Assembly: GCA_009602725.1 (NCBI GenBank)
Contig: WELB01000013.1
Location: 956,362 to 1,007,836 of the forward strand
Reading direction: 5' to 3'
From: Spirogloea muscicola
Taxonomy: Eukaryota > Streptophyta > Zygnematophyceae > Spirogloeales > Spirogloeaceae
DNA: 51,475 nt
This document shows, one piece after another, positions 7,111 to 40,689 of this stretch. The notes under the pieces were generated by a model. That model was not told the DNA's origin. It did no database searches and saw only the letters and a program-made list of their open reading frames with translations. The translations under genes and the position numbers were made by a program. Every line of letters starts with the position of its first letter. Within the stretch, counting starts at the first letter, position 1.

Positions 7111-8553
7111 GTGAGGTGGACGGAGGTGAGGGACAGAACCCTTCCACCGCCGCCGACAGCTGTGCTGCTGCACGGCATCCTTGGGAGCCGCAAGAATTGG
7201 GGCAAGTGCCCTGCCATCAAACCCGCGACAGTCTACAATTTGGTTAACAAGACTTTCGTGATCCATAGTGTTGGAACACTTTCTTCCTTCTTCTTTCTTC
7301 TTTCTTCTGGAGGACTTTACTTTCACATGCAATGCGGTTCCTCCAGCTTGGGTAAATGGGATCTCAGACCTGCATTGTGCAAAGTGATGTTTCGAGCAGT
7401 TGGCTGATTGTCGTCTTGCTTGTGTCAGTCTCCTTCGCCAAGCGATTGGCTCAGGCATTTCCAACCTGGCAGGTACTACTCTGGCTTGCTTGAAGCTTCT
7501 CTTTGGATGGGTGACACCTGATTGCAGGATAGATGTGATACTACAATCGTAGCAGGCTATGCACAACAGGCTGCACTTTACTCAAGATCGTAAGTCAACA
7601 AGATCTGCAACTATCCACGATGACAGGCTGACACAAGCAGAGTGAGAATCACCACTGACAACCAATATGAGCTGTCACAGTTCTTGCTATGCGATCTGAG
7701 GTGCCACGGCGACTCCACCTTGCTGCAGAAGGCAGGCCCTCATGGTGTTGCATCTGCTGCCTCCGACGTACTCCAGCTGGTCAGTCCCAAGTCAAGCAAC
7801 ATAGAGTGGTATACCTTTACTAGCTTAGCCTATTCAACATTCTTGTGCTGAGCAAGCCCATGGCTCAACTCTCCTGCCTGCAAGACAAATACTTCTAGAT
7901 TGTTTGCAAGCCACCCCTTTGCATGGACGGAAGCTGCAGCTGTCAGCATGATCCACAGCTGCAGAAGCCAGCTTTGCAAAGCTACCACTTTGCTGTATCT
8001 CTGCAGATGGGTCAGCTAAGGATAACTCCCAGGGTCCTCATTGGGCATAGCTTTGGTGGCAAAGGTAGGTGTCTGTGCTGACTTGGCTCAGGTGCTGAGT
8101 CAGGCATTGCTATGCTGAGCTGCGTCCGTTGACAAGTTGTTTTTGCGCGTAGATTTTCGCCAGTGTGCTTTTCAGGAGCCCTTCAGAATCGTCTGTTTTT
8201 GCACTACCAGAATTTCACTGTCTCTGTGTTAAGCAAGCCTGGGCATCTTCTCGGGTTGCCGGGAGACAGCAACAAGTTACTCAAGCATGCGTGTGTTTTC
8301 TCTGGCAGTGGCCCTGAGTATGATTGACCAAGCAGCAAAGCCACTGGCAAGACCCATCCAAGTAATTTCGACTGGACAGGGATGCTCAAACGTTGTGCAT
8401 GGAAAGGCTTGGACTTGGGCTCTTGACTTACCACTTGGCATTGACCCACTTTTCACAGTGCAATGGAGTTGCAGCTTATTGAGCCCGGCAAGATCTGCGA
8501 GCCTCGTCCCACTTGTATGCACGCCACGTTGTATCCACCCGCAGGTTTGGGTG
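7111..8553 (+). CDS. ABHD11-like alpha/beta hydrolase, apparently 3'-truncated
   Basis: Exons with closing phases: 7111-7201, 7429-7472, 7681-7779, 8007-8064, 8309-8361, and the start of another at 8545. They encode PPTAVLLHGILGSRKNW (oxyanion HG motif), FAKRLAQAFPTWQ, FLLCDLRCHGDS, GPHGVASAASDVLQL, GQLRITPRVLIGHSFGGK (GxSxG nucleophile elbow) and VALSMIDQAAKPLARPIQ. This is the plant/algal organellar esterase-lipase group related to human ABHD11. The next exon starts VWV, as relatives do, but then runs into retrotransposon sequence; the catalytic Asp and His region is not found. The intron after 7201 has a GC donor (GG|GCAAGT). N-terminal exons are not identified. The gene is probably disrupted, though a long intron to an unseen exon is possible. 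Confidence 0.8.
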
Positions 8554-12900: not shown

Positions 12901-13400
12901 AGGCGTGCTCGCCGATAGAAGAAGTGGCTCTCCCAATGGGGCAAGGGCTGTGAGAAGCCAGCCCGAAAAGAATTGACAAGGTTCGAAGGGGCCAAACTAC
13001 GAGCTAAGCGGCGACTGCGGGGCCTGAAGAGGCTATGGCAGAACGGGGGAGGATGGACCAGTTAGTAGTTAACGAGTGAGGAGCCTCACATCCGACAGAC
13101 TAGCTGCCGGTAAACTATCCCCCTGACGAAAGCCGGAGGCCGCAGCGAGAGCACGGCCAGCACGCAGATGCAAGGCGTGGGCCATGGACCGCTGGAGGGA
13201 GACGGACAAGAGACGGATAGAGAAGAAAGTGCTCGCCCATAGAGAAGAAGAAGTGGCCCTCCCAATGGGGGCAAGGGCTGTGAGAAGCCAGCCCGAAAAG
13301 AATTGACAAGGTTCGAAGGGCCCAAATCACTGAAGAGGCTATGGCAGAACGGGGGAGGATGGACCACTCAGTAGTTAGGAGCCTCACATCCGTAGGAGCC
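12901..13400 (-). mobile_element. Two chained A3 tails and 3' modules
   Basis: On the minus strand the A3 3' UTR (CATAGCCTCTTCAGGCCCC, TAGTTTGGCCCCTTCGAACC) and its terminus GGGCTGGCTTCTCACAGCCC ... GGGAGAGCCACTTCTTC occur twice (about 13060-12905 and 13360-13240). Behind the upstream one the sequence restarts with a short A4 terminus (CTCTATGGGCGAGCACTTTC) and then a frameshifted RLE tail to about 13085. Confidence 0.7.
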
Positions 13401-15300: not shown

Positions 15301-16239
15301 TTCAGTAAATTATAGCTGTTCCTGCAGCGAAATCCCCATCCCTCAAGACACTCAGCAAGGCAAAGTGGGGAGGGCAGACCTACAGGACGGCATCTGCACA
15401 GCCAGAGGCGCGGCCTTGGATTGGGAGGCACAGCGAAGATTGAATTACACCAGCACTAGGCTGTGGGACTGAGGCAAGGCCTACACGTTGCGACTTCACT
15501 TTCTCACTCAGCCGCCCCATGATGACAAGACATGGCATTGCATGAACCTCTGAAACAGTGTTCAGCAAGACTGTGACCTGCCTCCGTGCGAGCCGGACAT
15601 ATTGATTATATTTGCTCCTTGCGAGGCACAAGCAGTGTACATGTAGATGCAGACGTATGACAATTTAACGCATATCAAGTGTAACAATGCGACAGTGTTC
15701 CATTTTAATTAATTCCTCTTCACCTTCCCATCAAACAATCTAGACATTCAGGATGTACACGCTAACCCTGTCATTGACAAGGGCGGTACATCGAGCAGCA
15801 AATCTCAATGTCTGAGAAGGTCAGCGATTGACAGCAGTAAGGACTAATGAGCTCATCCACATGGACAGGTGTTGGAATATTGTCAGCAGCTTCGTTCTGA
15901 CAAGCGAAAGTGCAATTCACGTAATTTGCACTTACATTCGCCATGCCTTGCAAAAACGGTCCTAATGTAAACTTCCCAAACCAGCTTTTCCAAGTGCGGT
16001 TGTTGGGCACCACAAGTACGAGCAAGAATCATAAGCAGGCACACCTGCAACAGCTCATGTATGGACCAAATGTGGAAGATGCATACCTTACGATGGATGT
16101 GATCAGTGAAGTCTCAGCCACAGTTAAGCGAACTAGCCTTCAGCCTAGTGTGTCACATGTGAGGCTGTGGCATGAGGTGTTCCTAACGATGATGAAGTCA
16201 TCCCTGAATTTCATGACATCAATTTCATGATCATCGTAC

Positions 16240-17650
16240 GATAGTTTGGCAATGAACATGGCGATGGATATAGTGAGACGACTGCACGCCTTCATGGCGG
16301 TATTTGCTGTCGGGTATCTGCCGTTGGCCGTCGGACGTCGTGGAAATGGGAAGAAGTGGTCGTTGATAGAAGTCGATAGGATTGGTAGGCAAGGGCGCCG
16401 TCACGATGACCGTTGACGTAGGAGTCGTAGTAATACTTATGCTGTATGGTTGATGATATTGATACTGAAAGAAATGGTCCTGAGAAGTGCTCATCACCTG
16501 CATCAAGTGGTGAAAGTGCAATAGCCAGCGTCAGTGTGCACTCGTACTATGCTGGACTACCTCAACCTCGATGTGGAATGATGCGTCAGAATGCATGACT
16601 GAGATGTCAGCTCTTGGTGCACTATGACATATGAGTCGACTTATCTTCTTCAGATGATAGTGTTGATGAAAATGATAATATGGTTGATGACACTCAATGT
16701 TTTGATTAATGACATTGACAATATGGTTGAAGAAAATCAATACTCTGGTTGATGACATTCATAATGAAGCTGATGATATTGAAATAAGGGTGATGATATT
16801 GATATCATGGAAGATATTAATAACGAAGTCGATGATATTGACAATGAAATTGATGATATCGATAATCTGGTTGATGGTACTGATACTTGGTCGACGACAT
16901 CGAAGATATTGATAACAATTTGATGACATCGATAGTGAAGTCGATGATATTGATGATATGGTATCGATGATAAAAAAGTGGTCCTGAAATTGCTCATCAC
17001 CTGCATCAAGTGGTGAAAGTGCAATAGCCAGGGTCGTACTATGCTGGACTACCTCAACCTCGATGTGAAACGATGCGTCAGAATGCATGACTGAGATGTC
17101 AGCCCTTGGTGCACTATGACACATGAGTCGACTTAGCTTTTCAGATGATATGGTTGATGATGTTGATAATATGGTTGATGACACTCAATGGTTTGCTTGA
17201 TGACATTGACAATATGGTTGAAGATTATCAACTATTTGGTCGATGACATTGATACTGAAGCTGATGATGTTCAAAATGATGTTGATGGTGTTGATGTCAT
17301 GGAAGATATTGAAAGTGAAGTCGATGACACTGAAACTGAAGCTGATGAATATGATGATCTGGTTGATGGTACTGATAATTGGTTGATGAATTGAATATAA
17401 GTCGATGACATTGGTAATATACTTGAAGATGTCGGATATGAGATGGATGACAAAGTCGATGACACTGATACTGATGTTGATGAAATTGATGATCTGGTTG
17501 ATGGTACTGATAATTGGCTGATGAATTGATAAGAAGTCGATGACATTGGTCATGTACTTGAAGATGTTGGATATGCGGTTGATGACATTGATAATGAAGT
17601 CGATGATAACGAGCATATAGTTGATATATAGATATATCTATTGGATCGAC
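16240..17650 (+). repeat. AT-rich GATGATATT minisatellite with higher-order spacers
   Basis: Imperfect 6-15 bp units (GATGATATTGATAATGAAGTC and variants) fill 16630-16985 and 17140-17640. They are separated by two copies of a conserved spacer of about 150 bp containing GTCAGAATGCATGACTGAGATG and GTGCACTATGACA (about 16490-16650 and 16985-17140). ORFs here (DDIDNEVDDID-like) are by-products of the repeat. Confidence 0.9.
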
Positions 17651-17677: not shown

Positions 17678-17682
17678 TTGTA

Positions 17683-18170
17683 GGGCGCCTGTGCCAGCTG
17701 TGCCCCCCGCGCGGGGGGAACAACATGTGTATTAAGTGATGGAGGGCCGGGAGCGTGGGGTGGTGGCATGGCGCGCGCCGCGCTTGGAATGCAAGGGTGG
17801 TGTAACGGGCAAGAAAAGCGCGTCCAACCTGAGAGCAGCGGCTGTGAGAGGCCAGCCCAAAGAAGGAAGTGCTCGCCGCGCCCATACAGAAGAGGGACTG
17901 GCAAAGCTGTGAGAGGCCAGCCATAAGAGAAGAGAGGCTGGCAAAGCCAGCCTCAATAAGAATGGACAAATGTCTGAAGCCAAAGAAAGAGGAGCCGGGA
18001 AAGAAGAAAGTGCCCGCCCATAGAGAAGAGGGGCTGGCAAAGCCAGCCCAAAGAAGGATGGACAATGTCCAAAGCCAAAGAAAGAGAAGCCGGAAAAAGG
18101 ACTGCACTACAAAACACTGCAAAGCACATAGACGATGCAGAGGGAAGCTCAGTACCCACGAGTGAGCAAC
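17683..18170 (-). mobile_element. Chained A4/A1 3'-end modules
   Basis: On the minus strand at least four stem-loop termini lie in series, including the perfect GGGCTGGC-TTT-GCCAGCCC at 18031-18049, each with CTTTGGCTTTGGACATTGTCC upstream and TATGGGCGAGCACTTTCTTC downstream. A GC-rich boundary CGCCCC(C)GCGCGGGGGG lies at about 17703-17718. It is mirrored at 25.7-26.15 kb. Confidence 0.75.
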
Positions 18171-18955
18171 ATCAGGTCTGAGTAGCTCGCTGCAGGGAAA
18201 GAGGCATTCCACCGAGACCCAGAGGCGGTGGCCATAGCACGGCCTGCTCGCGTGTGGACGGCGTGGGCAAGGGAGCGTTGAAGCGATACGGCCAGGCGCA
18301 TGCGGAAGACTTGTGCGAGCGAACCGGCGGCGTTGAAGCCGGGCATCGCCCCTGGCAGACCCGGCCGCCGGTCAATGGCCTGGCGGGCAAGCCGCTGAAG
18401 GAGATCCAGCCAGCGGCTGCCGAAAGCCCCGTTCCGTGTACATCCATCGCCAGGGCCGCGGATTCATCACCAACCGGGTGATCAGCATATTTTCGCTCCT
18501 TGCCCCGGGCTGCCAGGCCGACCGCGTGCCCTGCAAACGACGCCGATCTGGTGGGATTGGCGGAGTCGATGCAGTCAGTTGTCACCACATCGGTGATGTT
18601 GCGGGGACCGCCGCCGGGCGGGATGGCGACCAGGTCGGCGCGTCGTGTATGGGGCTGGCCGTCCGGGCCCAGCTGGATGGGCATTATTGAGGAGTTCTTC
18701 ACAGCCACCTTGAAGCCAGCCTCCGAAACACCCCCTGCATACCATCTCGCGGGAGGTCGTGGGAAGCGGTCCGCTCGCCCCTGTGCGCGCAACGGAGTAT
18801 ATGCGCAGCCAGCTCCGCAGGTTCAACGTGACGGGCACCGCACTCGCACTGAGTGACGCCCACGAGGCAGGGAGGGAGGAGGCCCAAGAGCCGGTGGACC
18901 GCCGTCCTGAAGACCTCATCGGGCATGGTGAGCGCCGCGTGGAGTGGGAGCGCTG
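18171..18955 (-). mobile_element. LINE family A4: zinc knuckle, RLE domain and C-terminus
   Basis: Best complete RLE copy, with frameshifts only. In order: LTMPDEVFRTAVHRLLGLLP, CCHC knuckle GVTQCECGARHVEPAELAAH then ILRC, ERTASHDLPRDGMQ, GFKVAVKNSSIMPIQLGPDG, TRRADLVAIPPGGGPRNITD, VVTTDCIDSANPT, SASFAGHAVG, GKERKYADHPVGDE, GAGWISFSGL-like tail, NAAGSLAQVFRMRLAVSLQR, HTRAGRAMATASGSRWNASF and SDLMLLTRGY with stop at about 18150. R/H-D, D-x(n)-D and K residues expected for an RLE site are visible. This is the empty-site reference for insertions in the 25-kb copy. Confidence 0.85.
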
Positions 18956-21144: not shown

Positions 21145-21300
21145 GCAGCACACCCCGTTTCTACCTCCACCACCGCCTGCTCCAGCGCACGCCGGCCGTG
21201 GACCAAGAAAAGAGCGCGCCCATAGAAAAGAGGGGCTGGCAAAGCCAGCCCAAAAAGAATGGACAATGTCCACAGCCAAAGCAAGAGGAGCCGGAGAAAG
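21145..21300 (-). mobile_element. VHGRRALEQAVVE linker piece plus A4 terminus
   Basis: The linker FLVHGRRALEQAVVEVETG at 21145-21215 is immediately preceded (minus strand) by GGGCTGGCTTTGCCAGCCC and TCTATGGGCGCGCTCTTTTC at about 21215-21255. The upstream coding part seen at 8.9 kb has been replaced by a module terminus. Confidence 0.65.
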
Positions 21301-21870
21301 GACTACACTACAACATACTGCAGAACAGAGAAACGATGCAGAGGAAAGCTCAGTACCCACGAGAGAGCAACATCAGGTCTGAGTAGCTCGCTGCAGGGAA
21401 AGAGGCGCTCCGCCGAGACCCAGAGGCGGCGGCCATAGCACGGCCTGCGCGCGTATGGACGGCGTGGGCAAGAGAGCGTTGAAGCGATACAGCCAGGCGC
21501 ATGCGGAGCGCTGGGCCACGGAGGCGGCTGTCTGCGCCCAGCTGCTGAGGTACGCCGCCCGGAAGCGAGGACCCATGCAGCCGAAAGTGTCGATTGCCGC
21601 CGGTAGGAGGTGATCGCTGCGGGGGTAGTGAGAGTAGTGTCGGAGCTTTCTCTGCTCAGCACCTCCCACTGCGTGGCCAGCAATGTGCGTCGAAGCGGAC
21701 CTCTTGTATGCCTCCGTCACCACCACATCAACCAAGGCTCGTGGGCCTCCGCAGGTTGTACATCCACGATGTCCAGGGTGCGACGGTGATGGCGACCCTG
21801 GGAATCCGTGGTGATGGGCATTATATAGCTCACTTCCACAATGTCGGAGAAGAAGTGGCTCTCCCAATGG
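21301..21870 (-). mobile_element. LINE B/A mosaic tail
   Basis: The minus frame joins family B endonuclease/tail sequence (VVTEAYKRSASTHIAGHAVG, EQRKLRHYSHYPRSDHLLPA, GCMGPRFRAAYLSSWAQTAA) to an A-type ending (ACAWLYRFNALLPTPS, then ELLRPDVALSWVLS). The two families are recombined or spliced at about 21500-21540. Confidence 0.65.
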
Positions 21871-22270
21871 GGGCAAGGGCTGTCAGAAGCCAGCCCGAAA
21901 AGAATTGACAAGGTTCGAAGGGGCCAAACTACGAGCTAAGCAGCGACTGTGGGGCCTGAAGAGGCTATGGCAGGACGGAGAAGAGAGAAGGGCTCGCCCA
22001 TCTTGGAAGCGTCTATCCCCCTGGCTGACCCGGCCGCGGTCAGTGGCCTGACGGGCAAGCCGCTGGAGCAGATCCAGCCAGCGAATGCCGAAAGCCCCTT
22101 TCACGTCAATCGCGAGTGCCGCGAATTCGTAATCAGCAGGGTGGTCAGCGTACTTGCGCTCCTTGCCCCGGGTCGCCAGGCCGACCGCGTGCCCTGCGGT
22201 CGACGCCAATCTCGTGAGATTGGCGGAGTCGACGCAGTCGGTGGTCACCAAGTCTATCTGAACTTTCGTA
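21835..22270 (-). mobile_element. A3 terminus behind an RLE fragment
   Basis: On the minus strand VTTDCVDSANLTRLASTAGH, GKERKYADHPADYEFAALAI and VKGAFGIRWLDLLQRLARQA (22260-22010) come first. After that come the A3 3' UTR and GGGCTGGCTTCTGACAGCCC...GAGAGCCACTTCTTC (about 21850-21960), after which family B sequence restarts. Confidence 0.7.
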
Positions 22271-22600
22271 ACTACTAAGCGGTCCATCCTCCCCCGTTCT
22301 GCCATAGCCTCTTCAGGCCCCGCAGCCGCTGCTTAGCTCGTAGTTTGGCCCCTTCGAACCTTGTCAATTCTTTTCGGGCTGGCTTCTCACAGCCCTTGCC
22401 CCCATTGGGAGAGCCACTTCTTCTTCTATCTGAACAGGCGCATTCTGAACACTTGAGCAAGCGACCCGGCGGCATTGAAGCCGGGTTGCTCGCTCTTAAA
22501 TTCTTAGTGCTTCCCCTGGCCCCTTCTCGTACTTCGATCATTCCTTTTTGGGCTGGCTGTTCCCAGCGCCTATCCTCAACGGGCGAGCCCTTTCTCTCTG
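22271..22600 (+). mobile_element. A3 3' end followed by an A2 terminus
   Basis: Plus-strand A3 UTR (CATAGCCTCTTCAGGCCCCG ... GGGCTGGCTTCTCACAGCCC, GGGAGAGCCACTTCTTC at about 22376-22420), then GCGACCCGGCGGCATTGAAGC of opposite polarity. An A2-like GGGCTGGCTGTTCCCAGCGCC/CTCAACGGGCGAGCCC follows at about 22549-22592. Confidence 0.65.
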
Positions 22601-24991: not shown

Positions 24992-25521
24992 TTTCGGAGG
25001 CTGGCATAGCCACCATCTAGGTGGCTATGAAGAACTCCTCAATAATGCCCATCCAGCTGGGCCCGGACGGCCAGCCCCATACACGACGCGCCGACCTGGT
25101 CGCCATCCCGCCCGGCGGCGGTCCCCGCAACATCGCCGATGTGGTGACAACTGACTGCATCGACTCCGCCAATCCCACCAGATCGGCGTCGTTTGCAGGG
25201 CACGCGGTCGGCCCGGGGCAACGAGCGAAAATATGCTGATCACCCGGTTGGTGATGAATACGCGGCCCTGGCGATGGATGTACACGGGGCTTTCGGCAGC
25301 CGCTGGCTGGATCTCCTTCAGCGGCTTGCCTGCCATGCCATCGACCGGCGGCCAGGTCTGCCAGGGGCGATGCCCAGCTTCAACGCCGCCGGTTCGCTCG
25401 CCCAAGTCTTCCGCATGCGCCCGGGGGTATCGCTTCAACGCTCCCTTGCCCACGCCGTCCACACGCGAGCAGGCCGTGCTATGGCCGCCGCCTCTGGGTC
25501 TCGATGGAATGCCTCTTTCCC

Positions 25522-25639
25522 ATTGCCTCTTCAGGCCCCGCAGTCGCTGCTTAGCTCGTAGTTTGGCATCTTCGAACCTTGTCAATTCTATTCGGGCTGG
25601 CTTCTCACAGCCCTTGCCCCCATTGGGAGAGCCACTTCT
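25522..25639 (+). mobile_element. 118-bp A3 module with 8-bp target duplication
   Basis: Starts ATTGCCTCTTCAGGCCCCGC and ends GGGAGAGCCACTTCT. TCTTTCCC is present at 25514-25521 and 25640-25647. The allelic-like position at 18195-18202 has a single copy and an uninterrupted frame. This defines the A3 terminus as a transposed unit. Confidence 0.88.
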
Positions 25640-25690
25640 TCTTTCCCTGCAGCGAGCTACTCAGACCTGATGTTGCTCACTCGTGGGTAC

Positions 25691-26272
25691 TGAGCTTCCC
25701 TCTGCATCGTCTGTGTTTTGCAGTGTTTTGAGTGTAGTCCTTTTTCCGGCTCCTCTTTCTTTGGCTTTGGACATTGTCCATTCTTCTTTGGGCTGGCTTT
25801 GCCAGCCCCTCTTCTCTATGGGCGAGCACTTTCTTCTTTTTCCGGCTCCTCTTTCTTTGGCTTCAGACATTGTCCATTCTTTTTGAGGCTGGCTTTGCCA
25901 GCCTCACTTCTCTTATGGCTGGCCTCTCACCGCTTTGCCAGCCTCTCTTCTCTACGGGCGAGCACTTTCTTCTGTGGGCTGGCCTCTCACAGCCACTGCT
26001 CTCAGGTTGGACGCGCTTTTCTTGCCCGTTACACCACCCTTGCATTCCAAGCGCACGGCGCGCCATGCCACCACCCCACGCTCCGGGCCCTCCATCACTC
26101 AACACGCATATTGTTCCCCCCGCGAGGGGGGGCACAGCTGGCACAGGCGCCCCTACAAGAGCCAGCCGCGGGCCGCCTCCCGCCACATCGCACTTGCCCA
26201 CGGCTCTCGTCGCGCTGCTCCCCCGCGCCTGCGCTCCCCGCCGCGCCCCGCGCCCGCGCCCGCGCCCCGCGC
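25691..26272 (+). mobile_element. Right-arm A4/A1 modules and GC-rich gap edge
   Basis: Mirror of 17683-18170: perfect GGGCTGGC-TTT-GCCAGCCC at 25790-25808, further A4 and A1 termini to about 26020, the CACTGCTCTCAGGTTGGACGC segment, and CCCCCCGCGAGGGGGGG at about 26117. After about 26155 the two arms part and a CG-rich run enters the gap. Confidence 0.75.
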
Positions 26273-27829: not shown

Positions 27830-29190
27830 AAGCCAAGTCGACTCATGTGTCATAATGCACCAAGGGCTGACATCTCAGTCATGTATTCTGACGCATTACG
27901 TCAAGGCCGAGGTAGTCCAGCATAGTACGAGTGCACACTGACGCTGGCTATTGCACTTTCACAACTTGGTGCAGGTGACGAACACTTTTCAGGACCATTC
28001 TTTTCATCATCGTATAGTTGAAGATGTCGGATATGAGATTGATGACATTGATAATGAAGTCGACGATAATGAGAATATCGTTGATATATGATCAATGGTA
28101 TTCTCATTATCATCAACAATATTCTCATTATCATCGACTTCGTTATCAATGTCATCAATCTCCAACATCTTCAACGATACTACCAATGTCATCGACTTGA
28201 TATCCATTCATCAACCGATTATCAGTACCATCAACCAGATCATCAATTACATCATTTTCAGTATCAGTGTCATTAACTTCACTTTCAATGTCTTCCATGA
28301 CATCAATACCATCAACATCATTTTAAATATCATCAGCTTCAGTATCAATGTCATCAACCAAATTGTTGATAATCTTCAACCATATTCAATGTCATCAAGC
28401 AAAACATTGAGTGTCATCAACCATATCATCAACATCATCAACCATATCATCTGAAGAAGCTAAGTCAACTCATGTGTCATAGTGCACCGAGGCCTGACAT
28501 CTTAGTCATGCATTTTGACGCATCGTTTCACATTGAGGTTGAGATAGTCCAGCATAGTACGAGTGCACACTGATGCTGGCTATCTGACGCTGACTTTCAC
28601 CACTCGGTGCAGGTGATGAGCACTTTCAGGACCACTTCTTTTATCATCAATATGATCAACCATATCATCAATATCATCGACTTCATTATTGATGTCATCA
28701 AATTGTTATCAATATCTTCAACTACATTGCCAATATCATCGACTTCATTATCAATGTCGTCGACCAATTATCAGTACCATCAACCAGATTATCGATATCA
28801 TCAACTTCATTATCAATATCATCGCCTTCCTTATCAATATCTTCCATAATATCAATATCAGTACCCTTATTTTCAATATCATCAGCTTCATAATCAATGT
28901 CATCAACCAAAGTATTGGTTATCTACAACAACAACCATATTGTCAATGTCGTCAAGCAAAACATTAAATATCATCAACCATATTATCAACAACATCAACC
29001 ATATCATCTGAAGAAGATAAGTCGACTCATATGTCATAGTGCACCAAGAGCTGACATCCCAGTTATGCATTCTGACACATCATTCCACACCGAGGTTGAG
29101 GTAGTCCAGCATAATACGAGTGCAAACTGACGCTGGCTATTGCACTTTCACCACTTGGTGCAGGTGATGAGCACATTTCAGGACCATTTC
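27830..29190 (-). repeat. Minisatellite and spacers, right arm
   Basis: ATCATCAATATCATCAAC-type units (the complement of the left-arm unit) at about 28005-28450 and 28620-29010. Three copies of the conserved spacer with CATTCTGAC/GCACCAAG occur at about 27830-28000, 28455-28620 and 29020-29190. The left arm holds two. Confidence 0.9.
28038..28160. repeat. Inverted repeat at polarity switch of right minisatellite
   Basis: About 40-bp arms (TTGATGACATTGATAATGAA... and its complement ...TTCGTTATCAATGTCATCAA, one mismatch) flank an AT-rich centre with TTGATATATGATCAA. Equivalent in position to the 17571-17677 hairpin. Confidence 0.85.
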
Positions 29191-30009
29191 TTTCAGTATC
29201 AACATCATCAACCATACAGCATCAATATTACTATGACTCCCACATCAGCAGTCATCGTGACGGCGCTATCGCCTACCAATCCTATCCAATTTTATCAACG
29301 ACCACTTCTCCCACTTCCGCGACGCCCAACGGCCAACACCGGATACCCGACGGCAGATATCGTCGTGAAGGCGTGCAGTCTTCTTGCTTTGTTCATCGCC
29401 ATGTTCATCGCCAAAGTATCGTATGATGATCATGAAATTCATGTTTCAGGGATGACACATCGTCTGTTAGGAACACCTCATGCCACAGCCTCACATGTGA
29501 CACACTAGGCTGAAGCTCGTTTGCTCAACTGTGGCTGAGATTTCACTGATCACTATTATCATAAGATATGCATTTCCACATTTGGGTCCACACATGTGTT
29601 GTTGCAGATGTGCGTGCTTATGGTTCTTGCTTGTTCTTATGATGCCCAATGACTTCAGTCGGAAAAGCAGATCTGGGAAGCTTACATTTCACTGGTAAAC
29701 ATTCACATGGCATGGATAATATAAGCGCACATCACTTGTGATGCATTTTCGCTTGTCAGAGTTGATTACATGGAAATATCTCAACCTCTGTCATGTTGAT
29801 AAGCACATTGATGTCTACTCCTGTATTATGCTGACCTTGTCAGATATTGAAATTTGCTGCTCGATGTACTTGTCAATGACAGAGGCAGCAAGTAAATCCC
29901 GAATGTCTACATTGTTTGATGCAAATGTGAAGAGAAAAAGGATAGACCGAGACACTGTCCTCAACCCTGAAGACCTTCTTGCAATAAGATATTGGCGGCA
30001 GCAGTATGA

Positions 30010-32830: not shown

Positions 32831-33480
32831 AGACAGCGTGGCCTCGCAAGCCTGGCTAGCAGGTCGAGGTCGACTGGGACTCGAGAGCGTCGTGCACGTC
32901 CACGGCCTGGCAAAGGGAACTGGAGTGTGTATGCCCCTAGCGTGCACAGCTGTGTGGACTGGGCGCCTTTCGGCCCTTTCTGAAACCTCGTCCATTCTTT
33001 CTGGCCATCCACGGGCTCACCTCCTGGCTTCTACAGCTTGGGGATAGTTTTCCGGCAGCTAGTCTGTCGGATTTGAGACTCCTCACTCGTGACTACTGAG
33101 TGGTCCATCCTCCCCCGTTCTGACATAGCATCTTCAGGCCCCTTAGTAGCTGCTTTTAGCGTTTATTAAGGCCCCTCCATCATTTGGCCCCTTCGAACCG
33201 TTGTCAATTCTTTTTCGGGCGGCTTTTTCACAGCCCTTACACCCGTTGGGAGTGCCACTTCTATATACAGGGGATAGTTTACCGGCAGCTAGTCTGTCGG
33301 ATGTGAGGCTCCTCACTCGTAACTACTAAGTGGTCCATCCTCCCCCGTTCTACCATAGCCTCTTCAGGCCCCGCAGTCGCTGCTTAGCTCGTAGTTTGGC
33401 CCCTTCGAACCTTGTCAATTCTTTTCGGGCTGGCTTCTCGCAGCCCTTGCCCCCAATGGAAGAGCCACTTCTTCTATGTA
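32831..33480 (+). mobile_element. RLE remnants and two A3 3' ends
   Basis: A decayed minus-strand RLE piece at 32830-32920 is followed by plus-strand SDLRLLTR-stop and the A3 3' UTR twice (33040-33265 and 33275-33475), each ending in a GGGC(T)GGCTT-CAGCCC stem and GAGAGCCACTTCT-like terminus (33427-33446 for the second). The last one abuts the 5' end of TSR1. Confidence 0.65.
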
Positions 33481-33936: not shown

Positions 33937-33997
<61 letters not shown>

Positions 33998-39857: not shown

Positions 39858-40524
39858 NNNNNNNNNNNNNNNNNNNNNNNNNNNNNNNNNNNNNNNNNNN
39901 NNNNNNNNNNNNNNNNNNNNNNNNNNNNNNNNNNNNNNNNNNNNNNNNNNNNNNNNNNNNNNNNNNNNNNNNNNNNNNNNNNNNNNNNNNNNNNNNNNNN
40001 NNNNNNNNNNNNNNNNNNNNNNNNNNNNNNNNNNNNNNNNNNNNNNNNNNNNNNNNNNNNNNNNNNNNNNNNNNNNNNNNNNNNNNNNNNNNNNNNNNNN
40101 NNNNNNNNNNNNNNNNNNNNNNNNNNNNNNNNNNNNNNNNNNNNNNNNNNNNNNNNNNNNNNNNNNNNNNNNNNNNNNNNNNNNNNNNNNNNNNNNNNNN
40201 NNNNNNNNNNNNNNNNNNNNNNNNNNNNNNNNNNNNNNNNNNNNNNNNNNNNNNNNNNNNNNNNNNNNNNNNNNNNNNNNNNNNNNNNNNNNNNNNNNNN
40301 NNNNNNNNNNNNNNNNNNNNNNNNNNNNNNNNNNNNNNNNNNNNNNNNNNNNNNNNNNNNNNNNNNNNNNNNNNNNNNNNNNNNNNNNNNNNNNNNNNNN
40401 NNNNNNNNNNNNNNNNNNNNNNNNNNNNNNNNNNNNNNNNNNNNNNNNNNNNNNNNNNNNNNNNNNNNNNNNNNNNNNNNNNNNNNNNNNNNNNNNNNNN
40501 NNNNNNNNNNNNNNNNNNNNNNNN
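39858..40524. other. Assembly gap (667 N)
   Basis: Run of N between an Ala-rich segment and a LINE fragment, followed within 75 bp by a 93-T tract. Confidence 1.

Positions 40525-40596: not shown

Positions 40597-40689
<93 letters not shown>
40597..40689. other. 93-T tract
   Basis: Uninterrupted T homopolymer between an RLE scrap and a (GGC)n segment. Length and position next to a gap suggest a join or filler rather than biology. Confidence 0.85.

Follow-up and report, generated by a model that had tools for sequence, protein, structure and literature searches.

The known systems most similar to the insert analyzed here are the 5'-truncated copies of L1 and of the zebrafish LINE ZfL2. In the account given in PMC4245944, these copies are made by target-primed reverse transcription and have a common 3' end, a variable 5' end, a short target site duplication (TSD) of varying length, and microhomology at the 5' junction. 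All of these features recur in the LINE copies of Spirogloea muscicola considered here, among them the insert in the window, i.e. the whole stretch of 51,475 nucleotides that was analyzed. The source of this insert differs from L1 and ZfL2 (as treated in PMC4245944) in LINE family and host. Two other systems are relevant to the LINE family from which the insert stems. The RLE-encoding LINEs, including R2, R4, NeSL, HERO, CRE, and Utopia, are, as far as the descriptions in PMC4640811 and PMC5678591 extend, similar to it in motif order, in a weak match to the R2 reverse transcriptase (RT), and in the TCTT-type target preference of the Spirogloea LINE. Likewise, the Zepp LINE of the alga Coccomyxa is described in PMC3446292 as forming nested copies, though in one cluster per chromosome, whereas copies of the Spirogloea LINE are found on many contigs.

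The filled site and its empty counterparts

The insert is located in the right-hand of two inverted LINE-containing arms. Positions 25514-25647 read TCTTTCCC, 118 bp, and TCTTTCCC again. The 118 bp occupy 25522-25639 on the plus strand, with the 8-bp TSD copies at 25514-25521 and 25640-25647 on the same strand. When the right arm is aligned with the reverse complement of the left arm, it contains 126 extra bases, equal to the 118 bp plus one 8-bp repeat, and the blocks flanking the insert are 94.4% identical over 519 bp and 93.2% identical over 528 bp. The left-arm LINE copy has a single TCTTTCCC without insert (18195-18202, minus strand), and so does a third copy of the host LINE (21205-21507), in which the empty target lies at 21396-21403 on the minus strand. 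The 24-mer spanning the uninterrupted site, AATGCCTCTTTCCCTGCAGCGAGC, has 13 exact matches, including the one in the left arm, across the 153-Mb genome, compared with none for the control. Translation of these stretches showed that the reading frame of the left and third copies is open through the site to the stop, ending in ASFPAASYSDLMLLTRGY and ASFPAASYSDLMLLSRGY respectively, whereas in the right copy the insert introduces a TAG in frame. Since the other copies are empty and the frame is broken by the insert, the insert is the derived state, and the locus is a filled site rather than the intact partner of a deletion scar.

These results uphold what an earlier note on this DNA had described at the site, namely 118 bp between direct repeats in the right-arm copy and a single repeat with an intact frame in the left-arm copy. 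It had also claimed that the terminus of the insert recurs in the window, where GAGAGCCACTTCT indeed has eight exact occurrences. The edges are defined to within a few bases. The 5' edge carries a 2-bp ambiguity because the inserted LINE has CC at the same place as the final CC of the 5' TSD copy, and the BLAST alignment accordingly begins at 25520. The 3' edge falls in a TTCT-rich tail, its position being uncertain by a few bases.

Source of the insert and 5' ends of its copies

The 118 bp are non-coding and correspond to the final 118 bp of the 3' UTR of an RT-encoding LINE, beginning 25 bp past the stop codon (positions 7922-8039 of the reference LINE copy). In longer copies, the sequence continues unbroken upstream of the insert boundary through a 3' UTR of 143 bp in all, past a TAA stop and into an open frame. 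In the longest native copy, which lies on contig C10 (loci L059 and L047), this frame extends over approximately 1,100 codons before meeting an N run; the 964-aa part in L047 matches RVT_1 with E=2.5e-17 and contains YADD. Four other copies of this LINE are present in the window. Three are tails, at 22266-22421 (plus strand, 5' end at reference 7884), 21851-21978 (minus strand, 7912), and 33270-33472 (plus strand, 7837), and one extends into the ORF, at 12920-13210 (minus strand, 7749). On the basis of this evidence and of the 5' ends described below, 25522-25639 is very probably a dead-on-arrival, extremely 5'-truncated LINE (non-LTR retrotransposon) insertion inside another LINE. The event is neatly documented but ordinary, and the insert is no new kind of mobile element.

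To compare 5' ends, the native copy served as reference for aligning the copies found in the window and in 99 loci (L001-L099). A 3' end was found for 157 copies, of which the 107 with at least 92% identity were kept and the 50 below this threshold left out. Among the kept copies, 95 have both flanks, 102 have room upstream, and 104 have 50 bp or more of N-free sequence on the 3' side. A further set was picked by the 3' end alone: 70 of 278 places were fetched, 52 of which are among the 157 copies, 42 pass the identity threshold, and 38 have room upstream. This set misses very short or diverged copies. BLAST with default settings produces gap-tolerant chains that mix nested neighbours, and these were left out of the counts.

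The 102 copies with room upstream have 86 distinct 5' ends, which lie between reference 8005 and reference 5501, the latter being as far as the reference used extends. Nine of them begin within reference 7919-7925. These nine comprise the query itself, seven copies in loci fetched by ranking on similarity to the query, and one from the 3'-picked set, in which it is the only copy of 38 to start near the insert boundary. The cluster was therefore rejected as a real boundary. Exact 22-mer counts across the genome are in agreement with this: 622 matches for a 22-mer starting 3 bp inside it and 585 for one crossing it and reaching 9 bp beyond (control 0 for each). From the 3' end (reference 8013) inward, the counts are 1486, 622, 585, 220, and 2 (controls 0), where 220 is for the 22-mer at the end of the ORF (reference 7747) and 2 for that in the RT (reference 6203), a value also lowered by divergence. 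The ATTGCC start of the window copy is found exactly in seven places, three of which also match the corresponding crossing pattern; this pattern has five occurrences in all.

The earlier note had regarded the insert as a discrete, very short unit and had reasoned that shared 5' ends would mark a SINE-like element and scattered ends truncated LINE copies. The ends proved to be scattered. Instead of a discrete unit, the insert is a LINE tail, and most copies run across its supposed 5' boundary. The second reading offered in that note, an extreme 5'-truncated LINE insertion, is consequently the one supported by the RT-encoding longer copies and the variable 5' ends. A lack of other copies with the same boundary, named there as telling against the mobile unit, comes close to being the case, with the single exception among the 38 copies that were not picked by their 5' end.

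If the insert were a SINE-like unit, namely a 118-bp element that has its own promoter and a fixed 5' end and uses the LINE machinery in trans through a shared 3' end, it would likewise be short and coding-free and have a clean TSD, and the nine copies beginning within 7919-7925 could be read as its boundary. However, almost as many exact matches cross that boundary as lie just inside it, the set picked by 3' end alone yields one such start, and a fixed shared 5' end was not observed. Nor was a tRNA-, 7SL-, or 5S-derived head detected, given that ARAGORN identified no tRNA in the window and that 25400-25760 had no Rfam match with an E-value of 1 or lower. The predicted RNA structure of the 118 bp provides no evidence either (z-score -1.24; 21 of 200 shuffles fold as well). 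A SINE-like parasite, one of the two readings in the earlier note, is thus very unlikely and was rejected on the scatter of 5' ends and the counts across the boundary.

A deletion is more improbable still. If the insert were ancestral and the left arm had lost 126 bp between the direct repeats, the left arm would have the same sequence as it has now, but the site is also uninterrupted in the third copy and at the 13 exact places genome-wide, the ORF runs to its stop in the uninterrupted form and is broken by the insert, and the insert itself belongs to the 3' UTR of a different LINE. The deletion scar in the left arm that the earlier note had held out as a counter-indication was accordingly not found. 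It is scarcely credible that the insert is instead a fragment of a MITE-like DNA transposon. Such a fragment could be non-coding, short, and flanked by an 8-bp direct repeat, but the two ends of the insert as read from the sequence, ATTGCCTCTT and AGAAGTGGCT (the latter read from the other end), mismatch and are not terminal inverted repeats, and both the repeat length and the 5' ends differ among copies. The truncated LINE copy remains the reading that we adopt below.

Target sites and placement of the LINE family

Direct repeats flank many copies of the family. Exact flanking repeats of at least 8 bp are present at 35 of 95 copies, compared with 2.9 expected from mismatched flanks, and repeats of at least 9 bp at 24 of 95, compared with 1.0 expected; 17 of the 95 have no exact flanking repeat of at least 4 bp. 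The length of the TSD varies among copies and is 8 bp at the window copy. In the 63 copies that were not picked by the TCTTT pattern, the element is followed by T (59 copies), C (55), and T (43) at successive positions. This T-C-T mixes the TTCT-rich 3' tail of the element with a T/C-rich target, and the two are inseparable. Strong site-specific targeting was considered and is unsupported, because the 3' flank is shared in register with another copy in 24 of 104 cases, and random TCTT sites drawn ten times from this DNA gave 6 to 21 such cases.

One target is nonetheless notable. The target TCTTTCCCTGCAGC in sister LINE ORFs is filled in the window and, with another 5' end, in L021 (near 812 and 1513), and L078 has an insertion near 278-336 at a target overlapping TCTTTCCCTGCAGC. 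In addition, 22 of 104 copies lie directly before sequence resembling the tail of their own family, 20 of them in the same orientation and thus in head-to-tail stacks. Self-stacked copies are found in L004, L014-L018, L033, L037, L038, L046, L049-L052, L066, L079, and L083. Zepp, whose copies are also nested, carries another endonuclease type. It is conceivable, if rather unlikely, that the family is partly LINE-directed and self-stacking, with a preference for TCTT-type sites that lie in the tails and C-terminal codons of other LINEs, members of its own family among them. As a separate observation, all three frames of the minus strand of L052 (1-1571) encode a 7-residue repeat, GFRVQGS, implying a 7-bp tandem repeat that is perhaps telomere-like.

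In terms of motifs, the LINE comprises a zinc-finger motif, the RT, a Cys-His knuckle, and an RxDL...DVxxTD block, in this order. On this basis, the family resembles early-branching RLE LINEs, with the RLE label resting on motifs only. Some features depart from that group. The knuckle of the native copy, CECGERSTDPAELAAHILRC, has the spacing CX1CX12HX3C, rather than the CX2-3CX7-8HX4C stated for the CCHC knuckle of RLE LINEs in the relevant part of PMC5678591. Downstream of the RT, no Pfam or PDB profile match to a nuclease domain was obtained, and the lack of strong site specificity, as discussed above, is likewise a point of difference from the RLE-encoding LINEs as they are presented in those sources. 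In the PDB, the RT part is matched best, though weakly, by R2 proteins (E=0.011 and 0.28), and the whole 964 aa have no PDB match at E up to 0.01. An AlphaFold model of a 119-residue piece from the window has a mean pLDDT of 34.3, which is too low for use. No paper recovered by the literature searches was recognized as describing this LINE family. The host genome has 68 matches to PF00504, in keeping with a photosynthetic organism; a PDB comparison with a cutoff of E up to 1e-30 yielded nothing.

Order of events and significance

The two arms share approximately 240 bp past the point where the LINE match ends in other copies (17678-17920 on the left; the stretch ending at 26158 on the right), and 17678-17920 is reached by none of the 86 non-window matches in the fetched loci. 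Because this sequence beyond the LINE end is common to the arms only, among the fetched loci, a duplication of the arms, apparently an inverted one, is plausible. The earlier note proposed that the insertion postdates the duplication, which agrees with the insert being present in one copy and absent from two and with the flank shared beyond the LINE. Beside the site, the arms are approximately 93-94% alike; such identity figures are too coarse to order insertion and duplication finely, whereas the distribution of the insert among the three copies (one filled, two empty) can order them. A second inverted pair in the window, at 15716-17486 and 28106-29934, lies outside both LINE arms and consists of internally repeated, satellite-like DNA with approximately 83% identity. 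The window also contains long homopolymer tracts at 33937-33993 and 40597-40689, each near an N run (33936; 39858-40524).

With respect to age, 66 copies were compared with the majority base at each of the 118 positions, including nine with large ungapped differences owing to indels. As 32 of these 66 copies match the majority without exception, the LINE family may have been active recently. The window copy has four differences from the majority over the 118 positions.

Established LINE biology suggests how the insert may have arisen. Within the C-terminal codons of a related LINE, the LINE protein would have nicked a target of the TCTT type, and reverse transcription would have been primed at the nick from the 3' end of the LINE RNA. 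Synthesis probably halted early, once about 118-120 nt had been copied; the 5' end would then have been joined via 2-bp (CC) microhomology, leaving the 8-bp TSD. That the last two TSD bases of the window copy also match the LINE is as expected for microhomology joining; for other LINEs, joining by annealing as well as direct joining is described in PMC4245944. The insertion would have struck one of two duplicated arms, so that the other arm preserves the empty site.

What looked plausibly like a new short mobile element is hence settled as an ordinary truncated LINE copy, and a clean pair of filled and empty sites with a TSD is now at hand for this LINE family. If true, the preference for sister LINEs would help explain the growth of LINE-in-LINE nests.
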